Positions 20,288 through 64,000 of a stretch of DNA of 64,000 nucleotides are shown piece by piece. Within the stretch, counting starts at the first letter, position 1, and every line of letters starts with the position of its first letter. Source of the stretch: Membranipora membranacea (lineage: Eukaryota > Bryozoa > Gymnolaemata > Cheilostomatida > Membraniporidae). The notes beneath the pieces are model-generated. The model had not been told where the DNA came from. It did not search any database and worked only from the letters and a program-made list of their open reading frames with translations. The position numbers and the translations under genes were made by a program. Location of the stretch: contig OU612073.1 in the NCBI GenBank assembly GCA_914767715.1, positions 14,384,001 to 14,448,000 of the forward strand, in the 5' to 3' direction.

Positions 20288-20418
20288 TAGTCTAAGAGCT
20301 CAGACAGCTGCATTGCGAGTTCGTTGCATTACATTATAATACACTCAATTTTAATTTTTATTGAGTGTTTGATAATGTGATGCCACGAACTCGCACTGCA
20401 GCTGTCTGAGCTGCTTGT
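20288..20418. mobile_element. Short palindromic element, same family as the one at 40.2 kb
   Basis: A hairpin of about 130 bp. The left arm begins TAGTCTAAGAGCTCAGAC and runs through GCGAGTTCGTTGCATTACATT; the right arm is the imperfect reverse complement and ends at GTCTGAGCTGCTTGTTA. The first 18 bases equal those of the 40225-40349 element except at one position. The right terminus is degraded and I cannot define a target duplication. Non-coding. Confidence 0.6.
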
Positions 20419-27175: not shown

Positions 27176-27612
27176 CTGGCGCTGAGTTCAACCAAATCAT
27201 AACAATCTGTTGCCTCCACAGAGTAACTAAGGATAGAAGCTGAGATATTTTCTTTGTCGAGATATTACAAGTGCTGGCGCTTCTTCATCTTCATATCTCC
27301 ATCCTTTAGGCTCTCTTCAGTTAGAACTTTGGTGAGTATGGTTATGTGCAAACAATTTATTCTAAAAGTTTGTTAACATATAACAAAACTAAAGTAACTC
27401 AGCTGTCACTGATCAACTTTAATCTGTTTTCAAGTGACTGGTCTGAGGTAATGTTTTTCCATTTTAAATAATTTAGATAGGCGTTTGAAATAATGGATCT
27501 GCATTGGAAAAGTGTAAAAGAAAAACATTTTTTCATCATGATTGTTAACAATTTGTGTTAGAATTCTATTGAGCAGCTATGACATCGATTCATTCTGTTT
27601 CAGAGAATAATC

Positions 27613-29744
27613 ATGGCTGGATCCATGACAATGCTCTTCGCTCTCTGCCTTCTCGTAGCTGCAGCCGCAGGTTCTCCGCTGTATGGTGAGAACGGTGGCC
27701 TCATCGTTAGAAACAGCGGTGCTCACAACCCAACCCCAGATATTGAGAAACAACTCAAAGATCTTCGTGATGATCTCACAAACAACGGTAGAGAAACACC
27801 AGGTGGTCGTATGGTCCCTGCCAACACCCAGCAGGGCAAAGATTCTAATCAGGACACCCCTAGAGCACCTACAAATACTCCAGCCGCAACCCCAGCTCCA
27901 ACTCCAGCTCCAGCACCAGCTCCCCAACCATCACCTGTACAAACCGGCGGTAATGGAGGACGTTGTGGTAACGGACAGAACAACAGCGGATCTGGCAACG
28001 GCATCAACAATGATGGTGACTGCAACGGAAACAACAACTCTGGAAACCAAAACGGTTAGTTCCTCAAGATGACCTATTTTTAGATTAACCACTACAAATG
28101 TGCTGATTTTTTCGTGCTGTAGTCATCCTTGTACAGCCAAAATATTTGGAAAGCAAGGATCATAGTCTGATAGTTCATTAGATATATTTAAATTAAAATT
28201 TTGTACACTCTTGCATATTGCATTTTGATTGAAAGCAAGCCTATTATTCAGCGTGTAAAACTGGCTCAATTCTTAATCTTGTAGGAAACAGCAATAATGG
28301 TGACTTTAACGGTAACGGTAATGGAGGAGATAGCAACGGTAACAGAAATGTTGGCTCTGGTAATGGTAACAATAACGGAGTGGATAACATGGACATGAAC
28401 GGCAACCGAATAGGTAACAACGGTCAAAGTCAAACCAACAACCCAAACAGCAACCAAAACAATAACCAAAACAACAAAAAGAACAACAACCAGAATAACA
28501 ACCAAAACAGCAACCAAAACAGCAACCAAAACAACAACCAAAACAATAATGATCGACAAGCAACCCCCTCAGCACCAACTAACACTCAACAACCAACAGG
28601 AGGTAATGAACAGGGACAGAACCAAGGACAGGTACAAGGTGGAAACTCAGGAAATGGCATTGGAAACACAGGCCAGAACAACGGTCAAAACAATGAAGGT
28701 ACCAACAATGGCAACTTCAACAGCGGCGATAACAATGGTAACTCTAACAAGGGAGACAATAATGGCAATTCCAATGGAGGAGATAGCAACGGCAACCGAA
28801 ATGAAGGCTCTAATAATGGTAACAGCAATGGGCAGGACAACATGGACACGAACGGCAACAAAATTGGAAACCAAGGTCAGAGTCAAAACAACAACAACCA
28901 AAACACCAACAACAACCAAAACAACAACAACAACCAAAACAACAACAACAACCAAAACAATAATAATCGACAAGCAATCCCATCAGCACCAACTAACACT
29001 CAACAACCAACAGGAGGTAATGAACAGGGACAGAACCAAGGACAAGTACAAGGTGAAAACTCAGGAAATGGTATTGGAAACACAGGCCAGAACAACGGTC
29101 AAAACAATGAAGGTACCAACAATGGCAACTTCAACAGTGGCGATAACAATGGTAACTCTAACAGGGGAGACAATAATGGCAATTCTAATGGTGGCGACAG
29201 TAACGGAAACCGAAACGTGGGCGCTAATAACGGTAACAACAATGGGCAGGACAACATGGACATGAACGGCAACAAAATTGGAAACAACAATAACAATGGA
29301 AACAATGGAAACAACGGCAACAACGAACCAGAAGAAGCAAGGGGAAGCCTTCAACATTGCTCACCAAATGATGGTAAGGTTTGTTATAGTTGAATTGCTC
29401 AAACATATGAAACTTATTTGGCGTTTTTAGATCATGTTATACAAAAATCTGTGATGAAAGCAGAAAGTTTTGAATTTTATTGATGTTGTACAAGAGGAAG
29501 CATGTTTTCAAAATGACATTTTCTCATGATTTACATTTTTGTTTCCACAGGTACTAACGAAAACAAGATCTACACCCTGATACCCAACTCTAACTGCAAG
29601 TTTGATGTCAGAAGATCTATACCAACCCTCAAGCAGCTGGTTCCAAATTCTTGCGGACAGGGTTATCTCTTTGACATGTCCTTCTGTAGATGCCGATACG
29701 CCAGACATGTTGATGATAGGGTAAACTGCCGAAGCACTCACTAG
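27613..29744 (+). CDS. Secreted Asn/Gln/Gly-rich repeat protein with C-terminal Cys-rich module
   Basis: Coding exons 27613-28054, 28285-29373 and 29551-29744, both introns in phase 1, 574 aa. A 5' UTR exon (about 27.2 kb to 27331) joins an acceptor at 27603/27604, just before the ATG. Residues 1-20 are a clear signal peptide (MAGSMTMLFALCLLVAAAAG). Then come an acidic stretch, a Pro/Ala linker (PAPTPAPAPAPQ), and about 370 residues of Asn-rich repeats with NNQNN and GDNNGNSN runs, in two near-identical long units plus a third partial unit. The last 70 residues change character and contain six Cys, including SCGQGYLFDMSFCRCRY, loosely like the second half of a chitin-binding type-2 (peritrophin) module, without its usual aromatic spacing. 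It is presumably exported to an extracellular matrix, cuticle, shell or mucus; that is inference. I do not recognise an orthologue. Confidence 0.85.
28383..29290 (+). repeat. Long tandem coding repeat units in the Asn-rich gene
   Basis: The block beginning GA(T/C)AACATGGACA(T/C)GAACGG recurs at 28383, 28835 and 29250, giving units of about 452 and 415 bp and a partial third. Each full unit holds a variable NQNNN tract, a fixed SAPTNTQQPTGGNEQGQNQG segment and a Gly-Asn-rich segment. The fixed segment is nearly identical between units at DNA level, including silent sites, so the copies are recent or homogenised. The difference in unit length comes from the NQNNN tract. Confidence 0.85.
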
Positions 29745-34226: not shown

Positions 34227-37200
34227 TTACAGCATATCAGACTGTGATTGCGCCCTCGCTCTGCTATAACTACCACTGAGTCTACCATCTGATGAGCTAA
34301 CACTACCGGCTGTGAATAACTCCTTGATAAACACTACCGGCTGACTTCTTTGTCGAGTGTGCTTAGGCGCGAGCATTCTTGGTAATGTGAGAGTGGCTCT
34401 ATCTGCAGTCAGCTCATCCAGTCTCAGGTTACCTTGTAGAAACGGGACAATCATTGAGATAACACCTCGTGCCAGCCGCGAGGATAAAACCTAGACCAAG
34501 TTTGGTCCATTTGCCTGCATTCACAGTTGCCCCCGATCCACTGGTTAAGCATCAGGCAAAGACCAAAAACCTCACACAACACTTTTGTGTATAAGAGATG
34601 CAATCTGTTGTCATTGACATTCATCAAGAGAATCCCAATGGATTGGTAGTTAATTATTGATCCCTTCGCCTGCGGCGTGACCAGTGGGGCAATTCTGAAT
34701 GCAGGCAAATGGACCAAGCTTGGTCTAGATAGAACCTAACTATTGACCATAACCAAACAAGTGCCAGGACAAGTTATCTGCTCGGGTTATCACAGATGCC
34801 TGCTCCATTTACTGCTTGATTAACAGCTTGACTGACATTCGTTCTTACAGTGGAAATAAAATCCTTCATCAATTCATTTGTCGAGGTTATTCAAAAAAAT
34901 AATTATAGACAAACTCATAATGACACTACAATGCCAAGACTATAATCCCAAACGGAACAAAGAAAATGTAACTTCAATCATACCAGAGGATTTCGCCTTT
35001 TTCAGATTTTTTGATGGCGGGGCTGGTGTGACTTTCCCATCATAATAAACTCCCCTGGCTGTCATAAGGGGACTGATTATTTGTGCTGCTAGAGTCTCCA
35101 GCTCAATGTACTGCTTAGCTGAAGGGGTCCAAACACTCTGAAATATGATTGGTTTGGTTAGTGTAATGGAGAGGGTGGTCCTCCTGTGACATTTTATTGC
35201 ATATAATAATATTGTTATTGTAATGAGTTAATATCCTGTCATTGTTAGTCAATGAATATTAATGTACTTGTAGGACTACAATTCTTTTTTTTGCTCCTGT
35301 ATCCTGTATTGTTTCAAAGTAAAGCATGTATTCAGCAAAGGATATGGATGATACTTGGCGGCAGTTTGCTCTCTGTTTGCAGGCAAGTCGGAGCACACCT
35401 GAGGGCCAACCAATCCCAAGTAGGTGATTGACTGCGGTGGGATTCGAACCCACAACCTTCAGCATTTGCATGCTTAAGGAACAGCGCTCTAACAACTGCG
35501 CCACCCCCTACTTCTATAATGAATAAGTTGATGGCTTGTCTTGAATTTATAAAGAATGTGTGGATATGTGGAGCAGACCCCCAACTCCCGGTTAATGTTG
35601 CTGATTGTATCATGCAACATTCCACTCAACCAACTTTTCCTTAGTTGTTTTTGTGAGTTGCCTCCCCATGGCAAGAGAAGAGACAACCACCATCCTAAAA
35701 TAATTAATAATAAATGAATTGACAGTACAAGTTCACATGCATGCTGATTGCTAGCTGTTGCACATAATAATTACTATTTTAAGCGCTCGAAGTCAATCAG
35801 TGCTAGGGTAGTTGGTAGCATTACATGATCATCCTTTATCACACAAAGTGGTGGATAATGGAATACTACAACCAGCTATGGCCAGCTATCCATGCACAGT
35901 TTTAGCGGCTTGAACTAATGATTTATGCTGATTATATATTACCAAGAGCACAAGGAACATCTGTTCCAGAGAGCTGACAGTGTCCTCATCGTCTGCTGAC
36001 TTCCTGGTGTATACAGATGAGGCTCTGGCCTTTCTTTGTTGTAACCTTGATAGAAGCAAGATGTTACCTGTGAAAAATAAGAACAGAATGAGTGAACAAA
36101 TTCATTTTGTCAGAGCGATACCATTTATTAAATATAAGTATCATAAAATCTCATAGTTTGTTATATCAGTTGGCTGAAGCAAGGAGTTCTCTAACTCCTT
36201 GGCTGAACCATTGCCAGGCAGAAAATCAGAAATTACTTTTACCTCTTATCTGGGTTTTCAGTAACATTTCATCTCTAAATGCTACAAGTGTTCTCTCCTT
36301 TATAGGCAGGTTCTTGTACTGTAACAAGAAAACATTGACATCTGAGCATCACAGTGTCGGGTTAGAACGTTGATTTGTGAGATTGAGGGGCGATAGGAGA
36401 TGGTTTTGGGGAGCTTTGTGGTGAAGGGGGGACTACGCTAATGATTTTCCAATCATGGATACCCATACTATGCTGTTACCGACAGTTTCATTACAATAGC
36501 TTCAATTCTCTCTATATAAATATACTCTCAAACAGCGCCTCCTCAATCACTTCATTGAAGCCTATTTGGCCTCATTTAAAGGTGTACTGGGACCATCACA
36601 ACATGATCACAACGAGATCTATAGGAACGAATTAGTTCCTTCTGTTGCCTTTGGCGAGTTTCTCGAAAGAAATGTTGTGTATAAAAGGCTCAAGCCAAGG
36701 TTGTCTGAGATATAACTTGTCAGCTGTGGTTACCAATGTTGTATGTGCATTACAGAATACCTAAAACTCTAGGCATCACGATATAGCTGTGCCTGACAAA
36801 TCGGTTTAGTAAACAAAGAGTTGAGTAAGGTAGTTAGGGAGGGGTGGAGGGGGAGAGGGACAGGGGTGGGGAGGACTGTTGTTACCTCATCACTGGCTCT
36901 GCAGTTTGCATGCGGATATTTATACCATATTGTGGTTCTCTGAAACACATTATGTCATGCCAAGTCAGCACAATGTCACACAGCAATGTAACTTTTTACT
37001 AGAACCCGATAATACCAAAGATAATGCATCACACTCAGATAAATCCGATCCCGAACTAGTAAATACAAAGGTATTTTTGTCATTTTATTCTCTCGAACTA
37101 CCTGTAATTCACAGTACACAAACACACGCCCATATACCATACTAAGCTTACTGTGAAGTTGAACTGTTGACATGGCTCAGTCGGCATCATAACAAATTCT

Positions 37201-38589
37201 GACATTGTAATCACTTTGTAAACACCACTAAAGTTTGATTATATAAAGTATGCACTCACAGGCAGCACCCCACAGAAAATAACTTGTAAAGCCGGCAGGA
37301 GTTCTTTATAGAAATGATTCCAGATATTTGAGAGATTATCAAGGAGTGATTCTCCCTCATCCTCCACTACCATATTGCGTAACTTCCACATCCCCTTTTT
37401 CAATATCCGCTCCTAGAGACAAAACACCAATATTGGTCAACTTGAGATATTGTCATTAATGTATGGTCTAATTTGACATATTGGGTGACATTTCACATTC
37501 AGTATGTACATTAAAAACTTTTTCAGTTTTCATTGTTTCTAAAGTAGAGTCATCAAATAACTCACAACACTGTATGCATTTACATGCATATTTCCAATAT
37601 GTGACTAGTTTGAACTTATTCATATTCCCCTCTAGAAAAAAGTATAACCTAATTAGTCTGTGACTGTCCGGTTGAGAGGATAATAGCAGCCTGACACGCA
37701 TCCTGTGTAAATGGGAGTTGCCCTCTTCTTGGTATAAGGAGCACTCACCTCGTAGAAAGGTACTATGAACTCTCCTATATCCTGCTTCAGCAAAGATTTG
37801 ATAATACCATTTAGACTGATGAGCGTCTGACCTTCTAATGGTTCCCGATTAAACAGTAGTATTATTCCCTTTTGCACTCTGCAGGTTAAAACAAAGAAAG
37901 CAAACTAAGTAGAAGAATATTAAATAAATATGTACTGCGCGCTTTCTCGAGTAAAATAGGAAGTGTATGGCCAGAAACATATATTATCTTTCCAGATTCC
38001 TTCAAGTCGTATAATGCTTAGGCTAGGCTAGGATAAATTCTCTTAGCATCAGTTTTGTGCCAAGCTTATATAGCCTACCCCTGAATAAACTTTTGGTTCA
38101 TACAAACAAGTCTTCTTCTCAACAAGCAATCAAAACGTGTGTTTTGGTACTTTCCTACCATCTTTTCTACTTTTCAGAAAAGTTGCTACAACTCTTGCTC
38201 TGACGAACCAAGCCGAAAGTGCTAGGCACCGAGTTCGGTTATTTACTGGCTAACCACATCAAATCAATACTGTTTTTGGAAATCGACGCCATTGCATTCT
38301 GGGAAGTAGAGTTAGCAGACCTGTACTATTCATAGGTTTGGATCACTCACATTTTCAATGAATCGTTTGTGTACAGAGTTGTGAGCTTAGACTTGTATTT
38401 GGACAGATCATCTGGTTCTGTAAGGAAGCTGAGGGCTACCACGTCTTCATCTAAACTACCAGGAGAGTTTTGGCTTGTCTGTAAGAGTGTCACTCCCTCC
38501 AGATGTGGACTTCGGAGCAGAGGAGAGGGACTCTTAAATGCGTCATCATCGATAAACTCAGAGTCATTTAAGGCAAGGGTCAGGGACAT
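34227..38589 (-). CDS. PRR5/Protor-like mTORC2 component, complete
   Basis: Seven coding exons on the minus strand: 38589-38351, 37878-37749, 37412-37260, 36318-36243, 36067-35943, 35137-34984 and 34432-34227, phases 2, 0, 0, 1, 0, 1; total 1083 nt (360 aa, like human PRR5 and PRR5L). PRR5 (Protor) proteins bind Rictor in mTORC2. Family similarity is clear in exons 2-6: VQKGIILLFNREPL, KKGMWKLRN, LLDNLSNIWNHFYKELLPAL, SSLEQMFLVLL and YIELETLAAQIISPLMT follow the order of the HbrB-like core of PRR5. The C-terminus is Ser/Arg-rich (SRARAQSQSDML), reminiscent of the phosphorylated tails of PRR5 proteins. The first ATG (38589) directly follows a candidate acceptor (GTGTCAG|GTGCC), so an upstream non-coding exon is likely. 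A SINE sits in intron 5 and a MITE in intron 6. Whether it is nearer PRR5 or PRR5L cannot be told by eye. Confidence 0.9.
34492..34727. mobile_element. 236-bp MITE with 9-bp target duplication, in intron 6 of the PRR5-like gene
   Basis: The ends are inverted repeats of about 40 bp, starting TAGACCAAGTTTGGTCC and continuing through ATTTGCCTGCATTC. Flanks are GATAAAACC (34483-34491) and GATAGAACC (34728-34736), a 9-bp duplication with one mismatch. A 9-bp duplication is typical of Mutator-like elements. There is no coding capacity. Confidence 0.65.
35280..35508 (-). mobile_element. tRNA-derived SINE in intron 5 of the PRR5-like gene
   Basis: On the minus strand a tRNA-like head (35508-35429) begins GGGGGTGGCGCAGTTG, contains an A box (TGGCGCAGTTGTTAGAGCG) and a perfect B box (GGTTCGAATCC, 35450-35440), and has an intact TΨC stem (GTGGG/CCCAC). 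The sequence after the T arm (CGCAGTCA) and an AAG triplet in the anticodon region recall tRNA-Leu. The acceptor strands do not pair, so this is not a working tRNA. A body of about 140 bp follows and ends in an A-rich tail (AAAAAAAAG, near 35.28 kb). The duplicated copy of this intron at 42.1 kb lacks it, so it inserted after the duplication or was lost there. Confidence 0.7.
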
Positions 38590-40224: not shown

Positions 40225-40349
40225 TAGTCTAAGTGCTCAGACTCCAAGGCGCAGGGAGTTACTTGCGCAAGCTATCAAACTGATAGCTTGATAGCTTGAT
40301 AGCTTGCGCAAGTAACTCCCTGTGCCTTGGAGTCTGAGCACTTAGACTA
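40225..40349. mobile_element. 125-bp near-perfect hairpin element with exact 9-bp target duplication
   Basis: The arms of about 55 bp are almost perfect reverse complements, starting TAGTCTAAGTGCTCAGACTC and running to the centre, which holds tandem GATAGCTT. Exact copies of GGTCACGGT flank both sides (40216-40224 and 40350-40358). The 9-bp duplication points to Mutator-like transposase. Almost no mismatches between arms suggest a recent insertion. It is the sister of the 20.3-kb element. Confidence 0.82.
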
Positions 40350-41080: not shown

Positions 41081-41741
41081 TCAGTGGCTTGATGGTGGAT
41101 ACTCATACTTTAGAAGACCCTGGGTGTGTTCCAGGTAGGTTTGTGTTTTCTTGTTCTCAATATAATTCATGCAAATAACAGTGATACAAATTACAACAAG
41201 TGAAATCACCGCAACAATTCTGATACAGCAGGATACTACTATTAGGGCTTTAGTTGGGGTGACTTTATTTGAGGTTTGTGTATCCGTAGCTTGTGATCTG
41301 TAGGTACAGAATATCGTCATATAATCTAAAACAAAATTACCAATAATCAAGTTATTTGCAGTTTAGAACACAAGCAGTCTTTGTGCAGACGACAAAATTA
41401 TTTTACAACTTATAAAACTATGAAGAACCTTAAAACTAGCTTTTGTATGCCTTCACTTTATTCCATCTAGTTTTTAGATAGAAAGGCTAGAGTAACTTAC
41501 CTGGACATAAAGCTCTGCACTTATCAGCACCGATACTCCTGAGCTCTGCATGGTTACATAGATCAGCATCAAAGTAGCATTCCGTGGTGTTAATGTAATC
41601 GCCTAAGCAGTCACGGTAAGTTAATGTCGAGTAATCACTGCTTCAATTCAGAATCTGGATATCGTCTCTCGATGAAATTGAGGCTCTGGCTGCAAACTGG
41701 CTCAAAAAAATCAATATCCATAGCATTGATGTATATGTCAT
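41081..41741 (-). pseudogene. R1: broken member of the eight-Cys type I receptor family
   Basis: Two exons on the minus strand: 41741-41501 and 41325-41081 (intron phase 1). A signal peptide is intact (MTYTSMLWILIFLSQFAARA), followed by RDDIQILN, then TGA exactly where R2 has the first conserved Cys (RDNHQILLC). The ectodomain continues in frame (SDYSTLTYRDC) but nine residues that hold FNQYRP, the fourth Cys and its neighbours are missing (CYFDADLC). The rest (KCRALCPG, then DYMTIFC) fits the family, and exon 2 encodes a Ser/Thr stalk, a hydrophobic membrane segment with Val/Ile runs and a short tail ending KYEYPPSSH. Two independent defects make this a likely pseudogene, although splice sites and the downstream frame stay open. 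TGA at a Cys could in principle code selenocysteine; I see no support for that. Confidence 0.75.
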
Positions 41742-42138
41742 CTTCTCAAAAGGCCTCAGAAATCAGGAGGAAAATATTCTGTTTGAGAATTGACACAGCC
41801 TCAAACCCGCACTACTTGCCTCTGACCATCGATTGTTTTTGAATGCCTCAAAGTTTTACTAGACGACTCACTGTTTTATCATTTGAAATAGTATCATCAG
41901 AGACTGTATATAATATATGTACTGCTTAGCTGAAGGGGTCCAAACACTCTGAAATATGAATGATAGGGTTAGTGTAATGGTAAGGTTGGTCCTCACACTA
42001 AATTTAATTGCATATAAAAATTGTTATTGTAATAAGTAACTATCCTGTCATTGTTAGTGAATAAATATCAATGTACTTGTAGGACTACATTAAATAGTAT
42101 GTATGATCACTGACATATTTCCTAATTTATCCTGCAAC

Positions 42139-42221
42139 TGGGGGTCTGGGGGTCTGGGGATCCTGGGGGTCCGGGGGTCCGGGGGTCTGGGAGTCTGGGG
42201 GTGCGGGGGTCTTGGTCTGGG
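42139..42221 (+). repeat. G-rich minisatellite
   Basis: About nine tandem copies of a GGGGGTCTG-like unit of 9-10 bp, with runs of four to five G on the plus strand that could form G-quadruplexes. It lies in the intron of the PRR5 pseudogene and is absent from the parent intron. Confidence 0.8.
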
Positions 42222-43107
42222 TATACAGCACAGCTTGTGTACTATGGGTACAAGCACCATAACTCAAGAGGAATAAGTCTCACCGCTTAAAAGACAAAAC
42301 TTGATGGCTTGTCTTTATGAATTTATAAAAAAATGTGTGAATATGTGGAGCCAACCCCAAACTCGGGTTAATGTTGCTGATTAACTCAAGCAGGGAGTTT
42401 GGGACCAAACTCCTTGACTCAAGCAACATTTTACTTAAAACATTTTTCCTTAGTTGTGTATGTGAATTGCCTCCCCATGGCTAGAGAAAAGACAACCCCT
42501 ATCTTAAAATAATTCATAATCCATTAACTATATAACAAAACGAGCTCTCATGCATTCTAGCTGTTGCACATAGGGGATTCATGTGCCTTCGCTCACCAAA
42601 AGCGCAAGGAACATCTGTTCCAGAGAGCTGACAGTTTCCTCATCGTCCGCTGACTTTCTTGTGTATACAGAGGAGGCTCTGGCCTTTCTTTGCTGCATCC
42701 TTGATAGCAGCAAAATATTACCTGTGATAAATGAAAACTTTAAAAATGAGGAAACTAAATCCATTTTGTGAGTTCAATACCATTTATTTTATTTAAGTAT
42801 CATTATAGGTCATAGTTTGATATATCAGTTGACAAACGCTTTACTGAGCCATTGTCAGGTATAAAATCATAACTCGATTTTACCTCTGATTTGAGTTTTT
42901 AATAACATTTCATCTCTAAATGCTACCAGTGTCCTCTCCTTTATATGCAGATTCTTGTACTGTAACAAGAAGACATTGAAAATTGATGTAGAGTGATGAT
43001 GGAGATGGTTTTAGGAAGCTTTGAGGAGGGGGTATTCTAATAGTTGTCAAAGATCGTGGATACCCATACTCTGCTTTTACAATAGCTTTTAATACAACAG
43101 CTTCAAT

Positions 43108-43132
43108 TCTATATATATATATATATATATAT
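43108..43132. repeat. (TA)n microsatellite
   Basis: An uninterrupted TA dinucleotide run in the pseudogene intron. The parent copy near 36.5 kb has only TATATAAATATA, so it expanded after duplication. Confidence 0.75.
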
Positions 43133-43987
43133 ACTCTCAACCAACATTTTCTCAATCACCTCGTTGGGACTATGACACCATGATCACAACAAGTTATTTA
43201 AGAACAAATTGGTTTCGTTTGTTGCCGTTGGGAAGTTTTTAAAAAGAAATTTGGGTATAAAAGGCTCACGCCAGGGTTGCCGGAGTTGTCTTGGTTATTC
43301 TCAGAGTTTTAACTTCTCGGCTGATAAACAACGTTGTCTGTACATTACAGAATACCTACAATTCTAGGTATCAAACTAACCGTGCTTGGCCAACAGTGGT
43401 TTAGTAAAAATAGAGTTGGGTGAGGAAGTCGGGGGGATAAGGGGAAGGGGAGAGGAACAGGGAGGACTGGTTTTACCTCATCACTGGCACGGCAGTTTGC
43501 ATGCGGATATTTATACCATATTGTGGTACTCTGAAACACAGTCTGTCATATTAAATCAGTGGAAAATATATAAGCTTTTGCTAGAAGTCGATAATACCAA
43601 AGAATATGCATCAAACTGGGATAATTCCAATACCGAGCAAGTGAATAAAAAACGCATTTGTCTCATTCTACAATCCCAATCTACCTGGACTCTGCAGTAC
43701 ACACAACCCAAGCCTATATTTCATACTAAGCTTACTGTGGGTGACTGTGGGAATAGCAGGAGGCGAAGTTGGCAACATAGCAAACTGTAGACGCTTTGTG
43801 AACACATTGTGAAAACTATTCAAGTCGAATATTTTAAGTAAGCACTCACAGGCAGCACGCCACAGAAGATAACTTGTAAAGCCGGCAAAAGTTCTTTGTA
43901 GAAATGATTCCAGATATTTGAGGATGTGGAAGTTACGAAACATGGTGGTAGAGGATGAGGGAGAAGCACTCCTCGATAATCTCTCAA

Positions 43988-45539: not shown

Positions 45540-48010
45540 TTACGCCGAATATCTTAGTAGGTTTATTTGATTATCGTGAGATTCAGTTTTATTTGCTGTT
45601 ACTTGGTGGACTTGTACAGGATCAACCTTCTTCATCATACCAGATTTTTCTGTATAGGAGTATGCATCTACAACAAAATAATCCAAGATAATTTTAACAG
45701 AACTTCTTTGGCAACAACAGTCATTTCAAGGGTAGGCTAGCTAATCTCCTGCATCAATTTGTTGGAAGAAAAGTTTAAAAGCCACAATGTCTATTTAACA
45801 TCAAGAGTACAACATGTAAATAAACTTGTATTGTAAATTAGTAATTGAGCTACTTCCTGAATTACATACATACATAGTAGTTGACCGGGCTGAGGTGGGC
45901 TTTTGACATTCAACTGCGAACATTATACAATATACTTAACAACATTGTACCAATGTTGTTTGTCATGGATATACTTACGCAACTATTCAAATAAACACTA
46001 TTATTGTTAGTACCAGGAAGTTGAGGGAATTAACAAATATTGATGAAAGGATAAAGCTAACAATACAACGATAACTTCCCCCTAGCCAAAAATTCCCGAC
46101 ATTCACTGGATGTTTGTTTAGCAACTTACATGAGCCATTATAGATACTTTTATTGGCAACCGAAGTCATCTCATTGGAAATGTTTTGCACTCAGTGCCAG
46201 AATAGAAATTGAAACTTCCCTGATTAAATATTGGCCATAATATCATGTGAACTTCCTGGTTTAACCAGAGATTGTATTTTCTATAGTCTCTGGTAAACCC
46301 ATTATGTATGTGTCACTGAAATCACAGATTTAAGACTATTTTAACCAATAGGCGACAGCTCAGCTGCAGCTTTGGAAATTTTTATTATAAGGTCTTATAT
46401 GATTGCACATCAAAAATTCAGATATTTCAAATACCAAAAGAAAGGTCTTACCCAGCTGCAATGGTCTATGCTGGGAAGTAGAGGACATGATATACACCAA
46501 AAGGCCAATTGACAACTTGCGGGTTGCATAGGGGCGTGACATAACTATTTTTGAAGTAGAGGACAAATTGATGACTGAAAAAACTTTTGTGCTCCCTACT
46601 AGAAGTATAAGTAGACTTAGTGTCATTTGTTTTTCATTTTTACGCACTGAGGTTAAAAAACAAAATACAACTTGTTTTTCATTTCCTGTTCCAAAACAAC
46701 GAATCAGAATATGAAAAGTAATTTTTTTTTCATTTTTGTATTGATGAAAACCGAAATCCTATTTTTATATTTCTGTGCGACTTGACTGTATTGTGCAACA
46801 CAATTTATTTTACAGTGCTGGGGTGAAAATTCGCCTGCCGCTTGTTGATGCAAATTGCATGTTAAGCTTGCTGCCTTATGTGTGCCGCCGCTGGTGTGCA
46901 CAGTGTGCTTCCAACGATGGTGAGCTGCTGCTTGTGTGCTGCATATTGTGTGTTGAGTTAGCTGCCAATGGTAGGTGGGCTGGTGTATGTGGCCTGCAGC
47001 TTGTTGGCTGCAGTCCATGAGTTGCCGCTGGTGTGTTGCCATAGGTGTTCTGCCGCTGCTGTGCTTTCAATTGTACGCTCTGCATGATACCTCTGCTGGG
47101 TGTGCTGCCGCACACCATTAATGCTGCACAACATTGCTGCCGCTGGTGTGCTGCTGCTGGTGTGCTGCCAGTGTGAGCCTTATTATAATAAATAAGCTAT
47201 TTTCGCTAACCATGTGTTGACCTTATCACACCTTTTTAAAATAATACCGTTTTGGTACCCACTACAATTGTTACTTTACTAAATTCTTACCAAGTGAGCA
47301 TGTAGGTCTTTGTTTCACAGCATTGCATTCCTGCACATGCATTCTTGCATTGCGCGGATAAATGAATATTGCTAAGAGAAGTGATGTCATCAATACAATG
47401 ATGACGACACAAGCTACAATCATGGGTACTAAGTAGCTTGACCTCTGTGTAGGTTCGTTGTGTAAGGAGACAGTGAACAGTGGGAATGCATCGGTTGAAG
47501 ATCTTGTAGTGATAGATTTTATTGTTGGTGATCCATAGACACAGTTTGTCTCTGCATAGTCTGAAAAGAAATAAAATCCAGACTGCTATACAAAATGACC
47601 CACACTCCAGCCCACTCCAGAAACAACTTTAACCTACAAACCTTCAGTGTGACATTTGGAGAGGTGCAGTAGTTGTATAACAATATTCAGACAATAGACT
47701 GTAATGTTGTGTCACTCTATAACTTACCCGGACAAAGACCGAGGCACTTTTCGGCATCCATACTGCCTGACTCCACATTGTTACACACACCGGCACATGG
47801 ACGGTACTGATTGAAAAATTCCTTGAAGTAGCACCCGGCAGTGTTGTGGAATTCACCTGAGCAGTCCTTGTAGGATAAAGTTGAGTATTCTCCTTTGCAT
47901 AGCAGAATTTGATGATTATCTCTATATCTAGATACTGCCTGAGAGCAAGGTATAGATAATAGCACCAGAAGTAGTGGTAAATCCGCTTTGTAATCTGTAA
48001 AGTATCTCAT
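45540..48010 (-). CDS. R2: type I membrane protein with eight-Cys ectodomain (candidate TNF-receptor-like), apparently intact
   Basis: Exons on the minus strand: 48010-47728, 47560-47291 and 45667-45540; both introns are phase 1; 226 aa. Residues 1-25 are a signal peptide (DLPLLLVLLSIPCSQA). The ectodomain has eight Cys with spacing 11-9-11-3-12-3-8, starting CKGEYSTLSYKDC and including GCYFKEFFNQYRPCAGVC. The eighth Cys opens exon 2 (DYAETNC), followed by a Ser/Thr stalk, one membrane segment (YLVPMIVACVVIIVLMTSLL) and a tail that ends DNQINLLRYSA. I assigned the last exon because its acceptor, phase and open frame fit; another small exon in the 1.6-kb intron cannot be excluded. The C-x3-C-x(n)-C-x3-C half and the EYSxL start recall BCMA/TACI-type TNF-receptor modules, with an insertion of about 20 residues; this is inference. 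Confidence 0.72.
46830..47175. repeat. Imperfect GTGTGCTGC-type repeats in R2 intron 2
   Basis: The words GTGTGCTGC, TGCCGCTGGTGTG and close variants recur many times at irregular spacing. Open frames on both strands here (Gln/His-rich on minus, Cys-rich on plus) follow from the repeat and are not supported as genes. Confidence 0.65.
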
Positions 48011-51389: not shown

Positions 51390-54236
51390 TTATCCTGGTT
51401 TTGGTTGAGATTTTCCATTGTAGTCATCCTCAACACCATTAGGCGTCAATCTAGATGTGTCCTCGTTGTTATTTAGTTCAACAACATGCTTCTCATGCTC
51501 TTCTTCAACCAGCTGCTTTGCATCTGAATCTGAAAGGTAATGGTTGATTATTAGTTCTCAAAGAGGAAGAAATGTTTATTAATATCAAGCAAGACCACTG
51601 GCTAATATGAATAAATACATATAACATTCTAGTTTACGCTTTGTCCACCTAGTCAACCATACATTCCAGTTTATCATAAGCCGCACTATCACTTTTCTCA
51701 AGTGGTCAAGTGTGATATTTCGCATTACAGACACCCATAGATAGCAATGAAATTCTGGCGTACTTTCAATGATATGACATTGAAAGAACTGCATTGCTGT
51801 GATGCCCCATGACACTCTAGAATAATCACTTTGGTTCCATGTGCTTATTGAGCTTCATCTAGACCGAGCTTAGTGAGTAATCGCACCATGGAATCGCTAA
51901 ATTGGTCATGCCTGGTGCAAAGGCAGAACTTGTGCTAGTCAGTTCAAACTGAGGTTTATTTAGGCCAACAGCCTGAATTCCTGAGCTGTAAGATCAAAGG
52001 TCTTGATACACTTGGTTGAGGCCTAAGTTCAAGTCCCGCATTCTTTAATTCAATCTCAGACCATGGAAACAGAGCCAGTTTTCTAGGATGGCAACTCAGC
52101 TAAATCTAGATCTAGATCCATGGAAACGTAGAGTAGTTTAAATACCACAGTCTCTTTTAATCTTGATAAAAGAAATTATGGAATAATAAACTTTAAAATC
52201 AACAATGAGAGCCTGTTGATTTGAAGCACATAACTTGAAATCATCATAGCTGAGCGAGTTTAAGTCAAGTTTGACGCATTATGCTACGTTTAGCAACAAG
52301 ATTTGGAATAAACTTGTTGCGGGATGTGTCTTGAACAATTCTGCACAAACACAATTACTATTAATATATGTCAAAGGTCAATACTGTTTATTGACATAGC
52401 AGGAGAAATTTGATGCTGCTAGCCCTATCTGAATTAAATATGGGCTGGTTTACATTGACAGGGCCTGTTATAACTTCATGTTGCTCCCAAAGTTTTCCAC
52501 GATATGTGTGGATTAAAAACTGATGTCAGATGTACTGTTTGGAGCTTTCCAGTAAGACTTGTTCTTAGGTAATGTTTACGACCTTATCTTATCTATTTCA
52601 GGCAGTGTGCCATTCAATTCAAAGAATTATGTGAATATTATCTTAAGAGCAGATCTAAGTCAAAATGGATACTGTGCACCTCGTATTCTTTTGGTGAGCT
52701 TGGGCAAAGTTTCGGTACATTGTGTGGTCAGTAGATCCTGGATTTACGAATGTATGTTTCTCAGACTAAATATGGTTTTATCACTTCAGATTTGCCCATA
52801 ACCTTACAGGAGTGGTGAATTCCAATGCCCTCAAATAGTCTACTATTGCTGATCTACTATGGAACCATTAATTTTGTTGACTAGATGAGGCACAGAAATC
52901 AACAGTTCACTATGAAAATTGGCGGTGGGCCTAACATCCTGCATTCAGAATGAAAATATTAATGGGTTTAAATCTAACAAATGGACTGGAAATCACAAGG
53001 GTTTCAAATATAAGCAGATTTTGGTTTTCAAATTCAAACTTAAAAGCTGCCATTACTAAACTTTTCAAACAACTATTGATGGGTTAAATAATTATTTTGT
53101 GAATTTTCTATGGGCGAAACTAAAAGCCTACTGAAACATTATTCCCCTTGTAAGGTTGTAATGGGTTTTATTATCTTACCTTCCCATGATGTGAAATTGG
53201 TTTCTTCAGTTGCTGTCACCACCACAGCAAAAGGTGCTCTACCTAGACAAAGAAACACAGTGTCAGCAGACAGTGACTCAATGTCAGCGAAGAGTTGGTT
53301 GAAAACACATAATTCTGCATTCAGATTTCATATAAAAATAACATTACAGTTGGTCATCAGTAATGTTTGTCAAATCTCAGCCATATGATCAAACCACCTA
53401 ATACCTCACCATAATTTTTTTTGGTTTTTCTGTAGATATAGCGACTCAGCAAGAAGATCAGAACAACTACCACCAAAACCAGGACAGGTATGCTAGCGAA
53501 CACTGCTACGGACCATGATTGGTCAGTCACGTCTGCAGATTTTCCGTTTGCATCTTGTTTATTTACTGGATAAGTGTCGTCAGGAGAGTCATGTTGTGAC
53601 GATTTCATTTGAGTGAGTGAGCTTTTAGGTTTTCCACTTCTCCTGATGCTGCAAGAATTCTCTGCATAATCTGTAAAAATTAATGTAGAGGTTTATTGAC
53701 GATGGGAACGGCTGATGACACTTTGGTAAAGCTCTTTTTGATGTGTTTACTGTAGGACCCTGGTATATGCAAAGTTGAACACTAATCTCACTTCCTTATA
53801 CTGCATAGCACTGAATGTTGTGTACATGAAGCAAGCTGACATATCCCTTGCCTACCTACACAAAGTTCTAGCGGCAAACATAAATAACGGAGTTGGGACC
53901 ACTTCTGAAGTTTGTATATCAATATACATAATATGATTTTGATAACACACCTTTGCAGTACGCTCTACATTTCTCCTCATCGATAGACTTTATCTCTACA
54001 TTATTACAAATCCTGGCACATGGTCTGTATTGGTTGAAATGTTCTAAAAAGTAGCAACCATTGCTGTTATAGTAATTCCCGGAGCAGTCGTAGAATGAAA
54101 GTGTTGAGTAGTGTCCAGTGCATTCCAATATCAGCGACACTGGTTCTGTTGTGTGTTCTACTGTCATGCTTTAAGTCTCATCGAGCAATCCATGCAAAAG
54201 GACAGCAAAAAGGGCACAAACTTGACCCTTCCTCAT
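51390..54236 (-). pseudogene. R3: eight-Cys type I receptor family member with an in-frame stop after the signal peptide
   Basis: Exons on the minus strand: 54236-53951, 53670-53410, 53242-53180 and 51529-51390, all introns phase 1, about 250 codons. Codons 1-21 give a signal-like MRKGQVCALFAVLLHGLLDET, then TAA, then in the same frame SMTVEHTTEPVSLILEC and a perfect ectodomain with the same 11-9-11-3-12-3-8 Cys spacing as R2 (including GCYFLEHFNQYRPCARIC). Exon 2 supplies the eighth Cys (DYAENSC), a long stalk and a membrane segment (VLVLVVVVLIFLLSRYIY). Exon 3 (63 nt) has TATEETNFTS. Exon 4 is acidic (KQLVEEEHEKHV) and ends SQPKPG. Everything but the one stop is intact. So it is a fresh null allele, a base error, or a gene with another first exon spliced just before the Met at 54167. 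Confidence 0.65.
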
Positions 54237-56060: not shown

Positions 56061-57225
56061 TTGGAGTGTAATTTTTATATACAATTTTATTTCATATATT
56101 TTTACATTACAATCAAACTGAGCTTTCTTTTAGAGAATATTTTTAGAGAGCACCCACATTTTTATTTTTCTTCCTGAGGCAATACAAAACATACATACAA
56201 ACATATACATTCCTACTGTATATAACTGAATCGAGGTGGACATTTATCATAAATGGTTGATGGAGATTGGTGTCATCAAATACATTAACAATCAAATCCT
56301 AATTGACACAGGGTTCTCTGGCATGATTATGTCCACAATTAATGATTCGACCCACTGGATGTAGTATTTTGTGTATTGCTTCAAATGCGACATAGATAGA
56401 GATAATTTCCCCCCTGTCTGGTGTCATTTTGACATTGCAATGTTAGTTTCATTGTTTTAAAGCATCTTTGGTTTTACGTGCTATGGTTTTTTAGCATGGT
56501 TAACCTGTCCAAGCATGCAAACAAGAAATTGATACAAAAACTCTTGAAAATTGTCATTGTAATGAACTAACATGCTAGAGGCAGTTACTCCTACATCCTA
56601 TAGACCGATGCGAATGTGTTAGTGTTTATCAGATTTTGTTTTTCTTAGGGGTCAATCCAAAAGAAAGAAATGTCATTACGAGGTCCTAAAAATTAATTAC
56701 AGTCTGGAGAAGTTATATAAAAATGTTGAGGGTTTTAAAATCGCTAAACAACAAAGACTACACTGATAATGGAAATCAACAAAATCTGTCCACTAGTTCA
56801 CAAGTTAGTATTCTATGACCTTAAATGTCTATAAACCGACGCAGCTGCACAAAACATTGATTTCACCATGCAATGTGATACAAACATGCACATGCATACA
56901 TACATACTCACATTAATACAATAGACATAAAGTATTGCAACAAACAGCATAATGCAAAAAGCGAATCTTATCAACTAAGAAGTAAGCAAATCCCAAGTTC
57001 TTGGGCTCGGGCTTAGGTATTTACAAGACAAACTGACAGAAGAATAATTTATAGATATGTAGGTACTGTATCTTAAACCTGACTACAACCAACTTAAAAA
57101 CAATTGAATTTTATAAGCATTGTAAACACGATTCTCACAAATAATTTAATCTCAATGATGATCTTGACCCCAAGCAAGTCACATATAACTATTATGAGTT
57201 GGTGGCGCCACTGAATTGAGATAAA
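56061..57225. other. Spacer downstream of R4
   Basis: AT-rich, no recognised coding sequence. It should include the 3' UTR of R4. Confidence 0.4.
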
Positions 57226-58364
57226 TCAGCTTTGAAGACACCACAATTGAGTTGAGCCGTTGTGTCCGCTACGATTCTTATGTTTATTTTCTTTGGGCTG
57301 CTGGAAAGCTGATCTGAGGTCATTGAATACTGAGCAGCTGATCCAGGTGTCTCCTGACCTTGTGATGACCCTCCAGAATCTAAAATTGAGACAGAAAATG
57401 GTAGTACTGAATCATAACATATGTTGAGACAGAATTTTTTTAAATTTGCTGCTCATCGAATACTTTTGAATCAGTTGTTATGAAATGTTGCTACGGTTTG
57501 CAATCTGAGTTTATTTATTTCTGACTGTCTTTTGAAGAGGAAGACTGTTCATAAAACTCACCATGAGACTCAGTATCTAGGAATTTAAATGAAGGAATGT
57601 CAACGCCTGAGTTAGAATTAGATGGATTTGAGCTTGCAGTATTGTATCCTATGTCATTACTGATGCTCGATCGTGGACGCCTGTGTTCGCCAACTCCCCG
57701 CTGATTTCCAGCATCTACAAAGTATAGTGGCTTGAGGCAATCACTATGGACAAACATCAGACATGTCACATCACATATTTTTATCAATGTGAAACCTAAT
57801 GAATACTTTAATTTTGCCAACCCATGGGCTTGAAACCACATCACATTTCGGTGTATGAGTCCACCCACTACTGTAGACTGTCCCTCACTGTACTGCCTTT
57901 TTGCCCATACAGAACTTCAGGGAGAGACTGCTAGATTTTTTTGGGATCATAGTTTATGCGTTTGAGGAGGGAGAAGAATAAAATGATTTGAGCAAGCATG
58001 ACATAATCCGCTCATCCTTTATAAAAACTATAAATTGAGGAAGTGGAGTTGATGCTAAAAATAAATCCATTTCTGCAAACTCATACTAGTAGATGTATCA
58101 ATTATCAAACGATATACACTTATTTAAAACATCTAATCTAAATGAGCCGCATGCAACCTCTCTGTTCCTTATTTTTGTACAATAATAATTATTCAAACTG
58201 TAGATATCCTCTCTAAAAAACATGGGTCAATAGAGTTGTCATTCATGAGATGATGGACCGGAGATTAGTTTTACCTTGAGCTGGCATGCTGTTACCACGC
58301 AGCCTCCCTTCACTATTTTGATTGTCCGGAGAAGGAGAACCATTCTCTGCACCGATCATCCCGG

Positions 58365-61300
58365 TGTAGTATTGTAAACTGTCCCCCGCGCGAAAACAAC
58401 CCCGGGACACTTTACAATATTGTAAACTGTCCCGGGGACACTTTACAATAAAAACAGGCCTATTGTGAACTGTCCCCCCCTATTGTAAACTGTCCCCCCC
58501 TATTGTAAACCGTCCCCCCCTATTGTAAACTGTCCCCCCTATTTGTGACTGTCCATATCGAGAGCCCAGCTGTTTATCACCATTCTAAATGGGTCAGATC
58601 ATCTAACTGGAGCATACCATGATGTTCTGGCTGCAACTATGATGGCCAAAGTTGTACCACGGGGATGGTGGTGGTATCTCATTGAATGAGTGTATAAAGC
58701 CTCTTTTTCATATGGTACTTTGGGGATCTATTTTTTGCAAACACTAGTTATTTGAAGCTCCTATGATTTAGAGATGTCTGGTTTGCGAAGAAAGGTGCAC
58801 TAAGCCAACAGTGGATAGATGTGTAGTTGCCACATCACAGAACACACATACTTTCATTGCAGGTTCATGAGCCGCGCGAAAACAACCACCCCATTCATTC
58901 ATCATAAAATCTACCTCCGTCAAGCATTTGCCTGTGAGTGATGACAGTCAGTCACAAGTGAGAGTGGGAGAAATAACCGCTTTCGAGCTTTTCATATTGT
59001 GCGGCCTGGTATTGCCCTGTAAAACATTGCTTAAGCCGCGCAAAAACAACCACCCCCCAAGCTGTCTTATAAAGATTATCTGTCAAAAAGTCTCAAACGA
59101 AATGAACCATGATTTTCTAGCAATAATGTGATTGTCATGAAGTGACTGTGTACCTAATTTTGGATTAAAAGGTTAGAAATTAATGACACAACGGATTATA
59201 TGTCGTTCTTTGCAAGTTCATGAGCCGCGCGAAAACAACCACCCCATTCAGTCATCTTGAAATCTACCTCAATCAAGCATTTGCCTGTGAGTGATGACAG
59301 TCAGTCACAAGTGAGACTGGGAGAAATGACCGCATTCTAGCTTTTCATATTGTGCGGCCTGATATTGCCCTGTAAAACATTGCTTAAGCCGCGCAAAAAC
59401 AACCACCCCCCAAAGTGTCTTATAAAGATAATCTGTCAAAAAGTCTCAATCATAATTGACCATGATTTGGCAGCCATGATGTGATTATCATAAGGTGACT
59501 GTGTACCAAATTTCAGATTAATAGGTCAGAACTTAATGACACAACGGATGATATGTCGTTCTTTGCAAGTTCATGAGCCGCGCAAAAACAACCACCCCAT
59601 TCATTCATCTTGAATTCTACCTCAATCAAGCATTTGCCTGTGAGTGATAAAAATCAGTCACAAGTGAGACCTGGAGAAATAACGACTTTTGAGTTTTTCA
59701 TATGTGCCGCCTGGTATTGGACAGTAAAATATTGCTTAAGCCGCGCGAAAACAACCACCCCCCAAGCTGTTTTATGAAGATTATCTGTCAAAAAGTCTCA
59801 AACGAAATGAACCATGATTTTCAAGCAATAATGTGATTGTCATGAAGTGACTGTGTACCTAATTTTGGATTAAAAGGTTAGAAATTAATGACACAACGGA
59901 TGATATGTCGTTCTTTGCAAGTTCATGAGCCGCGCGAAAACAACCACCCCATTCAGTCATCTTGAAATCTACCTCAATCAAGCATTTGCCAGTAAGTGAT
60001 GAAAGTCAGTCACATGTGAGACCTGGAGAAATAACCACTTTTGAGGTTTTCATATTGTGCGGCCTGGTATTGGACTGTAAAACATTGCTTAAGCCGCGCG
60101 AAAACAACCACCCCCCAAGCTGGCACAATATGAAAAACTCAAAAGTCGTTATTTCTCCAGGTCTCACTTGTGACTGACTTTTATCACTCACAGGCAAATG
60201 CTTGATTGAGGTAGAATTCAAGATGAATGAACGGGGGGGTTGTTTTCGCGCGGCTCATGAACTTGCAAAGAACGACATATCATCCGTTGTGTCATTAATT
60301 TCTAACCTTTTAATCCAAAATTAGGTACACAGTCACTTCATGACAATCACATTATTGCTAGAAAATCATGGTTCATTTCGTTTGAGACTTTTTGACAGAT
60401 AATCTTTATAAGACAGCTTGGGGGGTGGTTGTTTTCGCACGGCTTAAGCAGTATTTTACAGTTCAATACCAGGCGGCACAATATGAAAAACTCAAAAGTC
60501 GTTATTTTTCCAGGTCTCACTTGTGACTGACTTTTATCACTCACAGGCAAATGCTTGATTGAGGTAGAATTCAAGATGAATGAATGGGGTGGTTGTTTTC
60601 GCGCGGCTCATGAACTTGCAAAGAACGACATATCATCCGTTGTGTCATTAATTTCTAACCTTTTAATCCAAAATTAGGTACACAGTCACTTCATGACAAT
60701 CACATTATTGCTAGAAAATCATGGTTCATTTCGTTTGAGACTTTTTGACAGATAATCTTTATAAGACAGCTTGGGGGGTGGTTGTTTTCGCGCGGCTTAA
60801 GCAGTATTTTACAGTCCAATACCAGGCGGCACAATATGAAAAACTCAAAAGTCGTTATTTCTCCAGGTCTCACTTGTGACTGACTTTTATCACTCACAGG
60901 CAAATGCTTGATTGAGGTAGAATTCAAGATGAATGAATGGGGTGGTTGTTTTCGCGCGGCTCATGAACTTGCAAAGAACGACATATCATCCGTTGTGTCA
61001 TTAATTTCTAACCTTTTAATCCAAAATTAGGTACACAGTCACTTCATGACAATCACATTATTGCTAGAAAATCATGGTTCATTTCGTTTGAGACTTTTTG
61101 ACAGATAATCTTCATAAGACAGCTTGGGGGGTGGTTGTTTTCGCGCGGCTTAAGCAATATTTTACTGTCCAATACCAGGCGGCACATATGAAAAACTCAA
61201 AAGTCGTTATTTCTCCAGGTCTCACTTGTGACTGACTTTTATCACTCACAGGCAAATGCTTGATTGAGGTAGAATTCAAGATGAATGAATGGGGTGGTTG

Positions 61301-62151
61301 TTTTTGAGCGGCTCATGAACTTGCAAAGAACGACATATCATCCGTTGTGTCATTAAGTTCTGACCTATTAATCTGAAATTTGGTACACAGTCACCTTATG
61401 ACAATCACATTATGGCTGCCAAATCATGGTCAATTATGATTGAGACTTTTTGACAGATTATCTTTATAAGACACTTTGGGGGGTGGTTGTTTTTGCGCGG
61501 CTTAAGCAATGTTTTACAGGGCAATACCCATCCTCACAATATGAAAAGCTCAAAAGTAATTATTTCTCCCGCTCACACTTGTGACTGACTGCCATCACTC
61601 CTAGGCAAATGCTTGACGGAGGTAGATTTTATGATGAATGAATGGGGTGGTTGTTTTCGCGCGGCTCATGAACCTGCAATGAAAGTATGTGTGTTCTGTG
61701 ATGTGGCAACTACACATCTATCCACTGTTGGCTTAGTGCACCTTTCTTCGCAAACCAGACATCTCTAAATCATAGGAGCTTCAAATAACTAGTGTTTGCA
61801 AAAAATAGATCCCCAAAGTACCATATGAAAAAGAGGCTTTATACACTCATTCAATGAGATACCACCACCATCCCCATGGTACAACTTTGGCCATCATAGT
61901 TGCAGCCAGAACATCATGGTATGCTCCAGTTAGATGATCTGACCCATTTAGAATGGTGATAAACAGCTGGGCTCTCGATATGGACAGTCACAAATAGGGG
62001 GGACAGTTTACAATAGGGGGGGGGCGGTTTACAATAGGGGGGACAGTTTACAATAGGCCTGTTTTTATTGTAAAGTGTCCCCGGGACAGTTTACAATATT
62101 GTAAAGTGTCCCGGGGTTGTTTTCGCGCGGGGGACAGTTTACAATACTACA
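58365..62151. mobile_element. 3.8-kb fold-back DNA transposon with CCGG target duplication
   Basis: Ends are TGTAGTATTGTAAACTGTCC and its reverse complement, flanked by CCGG at 58361-58364 and 62152-62155. The two halves are long inverted copies of each other around a centre near 60.06-60.12 kb, but the right half has five 353-bp internal repeats against four on the left. Each terminal 200 bp carries tandem copies of a 20-bp unit (CCTATTGTAAACTGTCCCC) that repeats the terminus. No transposase is encoded. TGT...ACA ends with a 4-bp duplication resemble Ginger-type elements; that assignment is inference. Confidence 0.88.
58868..61690. repeat. 353-bp tandem repeats inside the fold-back element
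   Basis: The motif TGAGCCGCGCGAAAACAACC begins units at 58868, 59221, 59574 and 59926 on the plus strand, and its reverse complement ends units at 60257, 60610, 60963, 61315 and 61668; steps are 352 or 353 bp. Each unit holds a second copy, TTAAGCCGCGCGAAAAC, about 165 bp away. A related GCGCGAAAACAACC lies next to each terminus. Outer units differ more from the consensus than inner ones. A 75-codon frame recurring in the units has no sign of being a gene. Confidence 0.88.
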
Positions 62152-62523
62152 CCGGTACCATTAATAGGATTTTCAGCCTGAATGCCATTCTCTCCCCGTA
62201 CGGGTGGTATGGCTGATGGATCAGGATCATTAGTCTCTGTAGATTGTATCGATTCTCTAGTCAATGGTATTCCATCTGAAAACACAGTTAACTTTGTGAA
62301 AGAAAACGTAAGTCATGCTAAAAGGCATTCATCGCTGCTATCCTTATTACCATATAGTACTTTGTGTACCTTTCTGAGCAATTCACAGTATTGATTAATT
62401 GCATCAGCAAATATTGAGAAATACTAGCAGTGAAAAGTGATCTCATAACTGTGATGGCTTTACCTTCTAAGCTTTCAGCATCGTTCATCTCTTGAGCAGC
62501 TGTGGTTGTTGGCTTAGGAGTTC

Positions 62524-63349: not shown

Positions 63350-64000
63350 TTGTAGCTTTGCGCTTTTTCCCAAAACAACAAATCTTTTTCTTGTTACAGA
63401 AAACCAGTATCGCAAGGATAACTATGACCGCAAGCGTCAATGATGTGGGTAGGCCAATCATCAGGCCCAGCTGGTTGTCCTCCTTGGCATCACTTGTGTT
63501 TGCTGTGGTGACTTTGATGACACTATCTGTTGTGTTCTCATCCAGACTACCCACATGGCAGCTGTTTTTCACATACTCTGTAAAATTAAAACATGAGAAG
63601 CTAACATTGAATAAACGATTTATCCTTAGAAATAATAAGCTGTGTGAAAGCCATTTCCAAAAGATGCAACATGATTATAATCATATGCCACCCATACAAC
63701 GGGTGCAACAGGTGACAGCAAACCTTAGCAAGAGTCTACAGGCAAATCCACACGCTGGTCATCAACATACCTGGACAACGGAAATTGCATCTTTGCTCTT
63801 CTCTCGATGGTCTAGCAACATCATTGCACAGGTCCGCACAAGGCCGGTAATGATTGAAATTTTCTAGAAAGTAGCAAGCTGCTGCAATATTGTGAAATTG
63901 TCCTTGGCACTCTGAGTGTGTAAGATTAGAATAGAGTCCATTGCAAATCAAGTGTTGCGCCATTAGATTTACAATGCTTGAAGTGTCTGCAGAACTAAAT

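Follow-up and report, generated by a model that had tools for sequence, protein, structure and literature searches.

The window considered here is a 64,000-nucleotide stretch of the genome of Membranipora membranacea (C9:14384001-14448000), and the genome searched comprises 339 Mb in 18 contigs. At the right end of the window lies R4, a six-exon gene on the minus strand. Exon 4 of this gene is interrupted by a fold-back element of 3,787 bp (58365-62151), which sits between two copies of CCGG. The most probable reading of the sequence (about 0.8) is that a Ginger1-type transposase put this non-autonomous element into a CCGG of the exon and thereby duplicated the 4 bp.

The interrupted exon

The original prediction for this DNA had placed the insertion inside a coding exon that is restored when the element is dropped together with one CCGG, and the rebuilt sequence agrees. 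The flanks then join as an open exon of exactly 210 nt with phase 1 at both ends. It is made up of a 5' half (62156-62275, minus strand) with the acceptor TTTTCAG directly upstream, one CCGG, and a 3' half (58275-58360, minus strand) that ends at the donor AAG/GTAAAA. The side reading NPINGT joins MIGAENGSPSPDNQ and then stays open up to the donor after 58275. When zero or two copies of CCGG are retained, stops or a broken frame result; exactly one copy is needed.

The other exons, all on the minus strand, are exon 1 (63771-64000 within the window), exon 2 (63350-63577), exon 3 (62464-62523), exon 5 (57562-57714), and exon 6 (57192-57379), which holds a normal stop codon. Exon 1 continues just beyond the window to one of two start codon candidates, 64053 or 64080, read in the fetched locus L029. 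All introns of this six-exon model have GT-AG ends. Each of exons 2 to 5 has a length divisible by three, so all five introns are in phase 1, and the phase of exon 4 is that of its neighbours, as predicted. With exon 4 restored and 53 bases added from beyond the window, R4 is an uninterrupted reading frame of 373 residues (382 from the upstream ATG), without any other lesion from start to stop.

An alternative is that the flanks are intron, or belong to separate exons, and that their join is open by chance. Among 586 intron windows, 12 are open over a fixed frame of 210 nt; for simulated sequences the shares are 1.1% and 1.9%. Openness together with a length divisible by three has a chance of about 0.4-0.6%. 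The G+C content of exon 4 is 0.474, compared with 0.44-0.46 in four other R4 exons and 0.31-0.38 in five R4 introns; it is therefore exon-like and unlike the introns. Acceptor and donor of exon 4 have scores similar to those of real sites (acceptor 7.35, donor 7.42, with the other R4 acceptors at 3.3-10.4 and donors at 7.8-10.2), on weights from a general metazoan consensus.

Weak support comes from a codon score, for which 13 exon pieces with 633 codons served as the training set. Exon 4 scores 0.031, and 1% of intron windows do as well or better. The score fails to separate the frame that is used from a neighbouring frame of the same exon with two stops, which scores slightly higher (0.069), and the accepted exon 5 scores lower than that neighbouring frame.

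Several results speak for a chance join or leave the coding status of the exon without outside confirmation. A 71-residue query made from exon 4 recovered from the genome only its own two halves, with no second or empty copy, and none of 1510 candidates in a protein database matched R4 at E up to 1. With all six frames admitted, the longest stop-free run across the join is 276 nt, which is not unusual around CCGG sites: runs reaching this length occur at 10 of 28 insertion sites (a set that includes the R4 site and one duplicated insertion counted twice), at 37 of 90 control CCGG sites, and at 22.5% of 2000 random places. An enrichment of insertions in open frames was therefore dropped as support, there being none above the CCGG background. 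Pfam searches on the open joins at five other insertion sites gave sub-threshold matches only (an EF-hand for one, DUF5609 for another). With no second copy of exon 4 in the genome and no protein match to R4, the case for the exon is built on frame, splice sites, and composition. Weighed together with the dependence on a single CCGG, these make a chance join unlikely, and exon 4 is taken as a coding exon that received the insertion.

Ends of the element and target duplication

The element begins with TGTAG and ends with CTACA, so that TGTAG stands at both ends, matching the Ginger1 criterion TGTNR. Its longest stop-free stretch is 86 codons. The end sequence, the 21-nt TGTAGTATTG, occurs exactly 204 times in the genome, compared with 0 occurrences of a reversed control. 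This number of exact ends corresponds to roughly a hundred copies, and those that were sampled are closely alike at their ends. The terminal pattern had 0 matches in each of the viral and prokaryote collections.

Ginger1 transposons are described as making 4-bp duplications of CCGG (75%) or of CCGT/ACGG (24%) and as having TGTNR termini (Bao, Kapitonov and Jurka 2010, PMC2836005). In the present family, CCGG precedes 129 of the 204 exact ends, and CCGG, CCGT, ACGG, or ACGT precedes 160, which is the target profile of Ginger1.

The CCGG copies beside the R4 element lie at 58361-58364 (left) and 62152-62155 (right). CCGG is a palindrome, and evidence that the flanking 4 bp are a duplication comes from other copies. 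Ten end pairs with at least one non-CCGG end were taken from the first 100 listed places. In four of these both flanks are non-CCGG, and all four are exact, non-palindromic direct repeats (ACGG, CCGT, CCGT, and CAGG). Matching non-palindromes in these four pairs show that the flanking 4 bp result from target duplication. In the six mixed pairs, CAGG (four times), ACGG (once), or TCGG (once) faces CCGG; each pair differs by one base, which looks like decay, mostly at CpG.

A view of CCGG as part of the element, not of the target, is ruled out by the frame test in R4 and by the non-palindromic repeats. No direct repeat of at least 3 nt adjoins the 4 bp on the outer side in any of 29 copies. CCGG stands on both sides in 28 of the 29 fetched copies; this is no independent count, since copies were selected for CCGG at one or both ends. 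Two of these loci, L037 and L038 (contig C8, at about 5.51 and 5.68 Mb), have identical flanks on both sides. Apparently a segmental duplication took the element with it, so that a single insertion stands as two copies.

The target preference extends beyond CCGG. Counting outward, the half-site prefers T, A, C, any base, and A, forming a weak palindrome. The counts come from 56 half-sites of 28 sites (for R4, 58351-58360 and 62156-62165) and from 226 control half-sites. T is found at position 1 in 29/56 (63/226 in controls, p = 1e-3), A at position 2 in 34/56 (74/226, p = 2e-4), C at position 3 in 35/56 (46/226, p = 3e-9), and A at position 5 in 28/56 (72/226, p = 0.01); position 4 has no preference in the same half-sites (p = 0.35). 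Among nine half-sites from unpaired ends, position 2 agrees in 7/9, position 1 in 4/9, and position 3 in 3/9. The target score of the R4 site exceeds that of about 90% of 113 control CCGG sites. A weak palindromic target preference is known for integrase-type enzymes.

Fold-back architecture

A fold-back transposon spanning 58361-62155, flanking CCGG included, had been predicted, and it is borne out by the coordinates, by the inverted arms with their tandem 353-bp units, and by the repetition of the end sequence in the genome. The left outer arm, outside the array, occupies 58365-58853 (plus strand, 489 bp), and the right one 61684-62151 (minus strand, 468 bp). Their alignment has 467 positions, 464 of them identical, and 23 gap columns.

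Between the outer arms lie two arrays. The left array (58853-60122, plus strand) holds 3.6 units of 353 bp and eight inward-facing copies of the 13-bp core CGCGAAAACAACC, with a ninth at 58389 near the terminus. The right array (60122-61683, minus strand) holds 4.4 units of 353 bp and eight motifs facing the opposite way, with a ninth at 62115 near the terminus. Thus, with one mismatch allowed, 18 copies of CGCGAAAACAACC lie inside the element and 0 elsewhere in the window. The motif begins at the 25th base from each element end. The remaining motifs number two per unit, at spacings of 164 and 189 bp, except for one that was lost: one unit of the right array has no motif copy within one mismatch.

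The same plan is found across the family, which was compared in 29 copies of 1.0-6.9 kb, the R4 copy included. All 385 motifs stand in plus-then-minus order, that is, facing inward, in 29/29 copies. The inverted order itself follows from the arms being inverted; the informative part is the upkeep of the spacing and of the motif. Neighbouring motifs on the same strand are 160-166 or 185-193 bp apart in 243 of 327 cases. The number of motifs differs between arms (8 and 23 in L010, 5 and 1 in L028). Such differences between arms are frequent, so units are gained and lost with no change of orientation.

The inverted arms measure about 1.76 kb in the R4 copy, about 2.9 kb in L009, and only 198 bp in L017. 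Other copies carry, at their centre, anything from no sequence to about 1.6 kb of sequence that the R4 copy does not cover. In L009 and L011 this central sequence contains a common open stretch (126 and 112 codons), a possible remnant of internal coding sequence.

Probable assignment to Ginger1

Termini and targets suggest that the element is a non-autonomous transposon of the Ginger1 type. This assignment has to be set against four observations. None of the four expected targets precedes 44 of the 204 exact ends. The long arms of most copies exceed the 40-270 bp published for the terminal inverted repeats of known Ginger1 members (PMC2836005); the 198-bp arms of L017 are within it. No long reading frame was found in the first 20 fetched elements, on which no protein-family search was made; the longest is 126 codons, as expected if the family is non-autonomous. 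Finally, frames of up to 694 codons do occur in 10-kb stretches around unpaired ends.

The element might instead come from another superfamily with TGT...ACA ends, for example IS481EU or an unnamed group of integrase-like elements. No transposase is seen in the element copies, and IS481EU, which has an IS481-like transposase, is described as having TGT...ACA ends in some families and 4-bp duplications at times (PMC10045372). Such an origin is nonetheless improbable. IS481EU was described from parabasalids with several duplication lengths (about 4, 15, or 25 bp), and "CCGG" is absent from the available part of that text (PMC10045372). The duplications seen in the present family are 4-bp only: this length suits each of the ten pairs in which one or both ends are non-CCGG, six of them with one changed base. 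The profile of CCGG, CCGT, and ACGG is moreover that of Ginger1, which therefore remains the preferred assignment.

Proposed mechanism and effect on R4

In the proposed mechanism, a Ginger1-type, integrase-like transposase supplied in trans would recognise both the repeated 13-bp motif and the termini. The motif, which lies close to both ends and all along the arms, would then be a transposase-binding site, and the arrays would act as multi-site ends, as has been proposed for Galileo. Insertion at CCGG duplicated the 4-bp target.

Read on the minus strand, the frame of R4 is open to NPINGT, continues into the element as GVVL, and stops, just as predicted; the premature TAA (62139-62141) lies within the element terminus. 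A transcript reading into the element would encode 235 instead of 373 residues, with 138 tail residues lost. Unless removed by nonsense-mediated decay, the product would keep the ectodomain and membrane segment, with a tail of 81 residues in place of 219. Skipping of exon 4 would keep the frame and give 303 residues. About 80 nt into the element there is an AATAAA in R4 sense (62064-62069, minus strand), a possible premature polyadenylation signal that could end read-in transcripts early, and three ATTAAA lie further in.

Another possibility is that the element is spliced out like an intron through sites near its ends, leaving the receptor unharmed, as in introners. Out of 24 x 29 donor-acceptor combinations, 25 would preserve the frame and contain no stop. 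A site at 58440 inside the element resembles an acceptor and scores 5.5, compared with 3.3 for the weakest real R4 acceptor. The donor side is where this explanation fails: the best donor-like site from 62275 to 61850 scores 3.1, compared with 7.4-10.2 for the five real R4 donors, and the best in-frame pair relies on a donor scoring 1.3. For this copy, and on the general metazoan weights, splicing of the element as an intron was rejected because no donor-like site exceeds 3.1, and it is regarded as very unlikely. The likeness to introners (PMC9860276) is that a DNA element lies within a gene; the difference is the missing donor-like site of real strength near the element end.

The RNA of the whole element is predicted to form a hairpin with 92% of bases paired, at -3050 kcal/mol compared with -1017 kcal/mol for one shuffled copy. 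A broader proposal, put forward tentatively and held to be rather doubtful as a whole, joins these features. It supposes that a transposon of the integrase lineage evolved the fold-back plan on its own, and that its unit arrays are multi-site ends for the Ginger1 transposase. Each 353 bp would offer two motif sites at spacings of 164 and 189 bp, close to nucleosome length, and the arms would gain and lose units independently with the inward order kept. In R4 the outcome would be a stable receptor of reduced length, since the element terminus has both a stop in frame and a polyadenylation signal; transcripts running past these would instead fold into a hairpin of about 1.7 kb, from which small RNAs directed against the family could be made.

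Age of the insertion

The original prediction called the insertion recent. In its favour, the two ends of the R4 copy are 99.1-99.4% identical and R4 has no other lesion. The identity of the arms is a poor measure of date, because an end has its own partner as nearest relative in only 14 of 56 cases and because array units turn over. Over the first 480 nt of 28 copies, ends are a median 97.9% alike within a copy and 96.1% between copies, and five of the 28 copies fall below 86% between their own ends. In the R4 copy, the outermost array units of one arm match those of the other at only 90%, compared with 99% for the outer arms. Dating by arm or unit divergence was rejected on these grounds. 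The element family is young, and a recent insertion into R4 is plausible.

R4 and its relatives

By eye, R4 has a signal-peptide-like start and a cysteine-rich ectodomain (exon 1), one hydrophobic, membrane-like segment (exon 2), and a tail of 219 residues. It reads as an animal cell-surface receptor or membrane protein. Pfam searches with R4 and its paralogue R2 gave only matches below the curated cut-offs.

The ectodomains of R2 to R4 (47726-47911, 53949-54128, and 63771-63999) have in common a cysteine-rich module that precedes a membrane-like segment; its cysteine spacing presumably recalls BCMA/TACI-like TNF receptors. The paralogue R1 (41440-41800, minus strand) has an in-frame TGA where the cysteine-rich domain begins and lacks a block, holding a cysteine, that is present in R2 to R4. 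For these two reasons R1 looks like a pseudogene. Beyond the window, on the minus strand of L029, lie a family member R5 that is close to R3 (4723-4902) and an R6-like fragment that is broken and contains a stop (7707-7801). The R receptor genes are read as a tandem cluster with gain and loss.

Comparison with known systems

Transposon insertion into a coding exon is ordinary. What appears to be new is the Ginger1-type fold-back architecture, in which inverted arms of 353-bp repeats carry a 13-bp motif that is also found near the termini and always faces inward. No fold-back Ginger is described in the titles or abstract starts among the literature matches listed.

Known Ginger1 elements resemble the present family in their TGTNR termini, in their CCGG duplications with a CCGT/ACGG minority, and in having non-autonomous copies of a few kb that share ends. 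They differ in their short terminal inverted repeats (inverted arms of tandem repeats reach about 2.9 kb here) and in their transposase, none being seen in the copies here. That transposase is Gypsy-integrase-like, with H2C2, DDE, and GPY/F domains and, in most, OTU or Ulp1 (PMC2836005).

Similar arms are known from other lineages. Galileo, of the P superfamily in Drosophila, has long, internally repetitive inverted arms with extra copies of a near-end site, and its THAP domain binds both near the end and in the tandem repeats of the arms (PMC3688188). It belongs to a different superfamily, with a THAP/P transposase, and its binding was footprinted, whereas binding here is inferred from sequence (PMC3688188). 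Nearest in layout is Tetris of Drosophila virilis, which is also non-autonomous and fold-back, with tandem-repeat arms (units of about 220 bp compared with 353 bp here). Tetris shares its ends with DAIBAM, not with Ginger, and gave rise to satellite arrays (PMC4079207).

In R4, the reading frame of a host exon reports the target duplication directly, which supports Ginger1 biology from the host side. If the assignment is true, a long-armed Ginger1-type family would show the fold-back plan in a further lineage, one akin to retroviral integrases. Its roughly hundred copies, closely alike at their ends where sampled, could be used to ask why fold-back arms evolve. Should the insertion segregate, R4 would be a natural tail-truncation allele of a receptor.

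Other features of the window

A 596-codon open frame rich in serine, threonine, and lysine (11947-13737, minus strand) lies on the strand opposite to EXOC2, between pieces of that gene (3795-19603), and has no Pfam match at E 0.1. The EXOC2 pieces gave 522 hits, and the 120 among them that were listed show 33-45% identity. On the plus strand, 27583-29393 holds open frames rich in asparagine, glycine, and glutamine, with 414 bp duplicated in tandem (92%); they may encode a secreted repeat protein. Four self-complementary stretches are possibly other small inverted-repeat elements: 14792-15288, 5115-5584, 40225-40349, and 20297-20412, with 79%, 71%, 92%, and 86% identity, respectively, to their own reverse complements. 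Finally, 35106-37393 and 41917-43987 form a diverged duplicated block, with 71-91% identity in pieces and one edge piece inverted.

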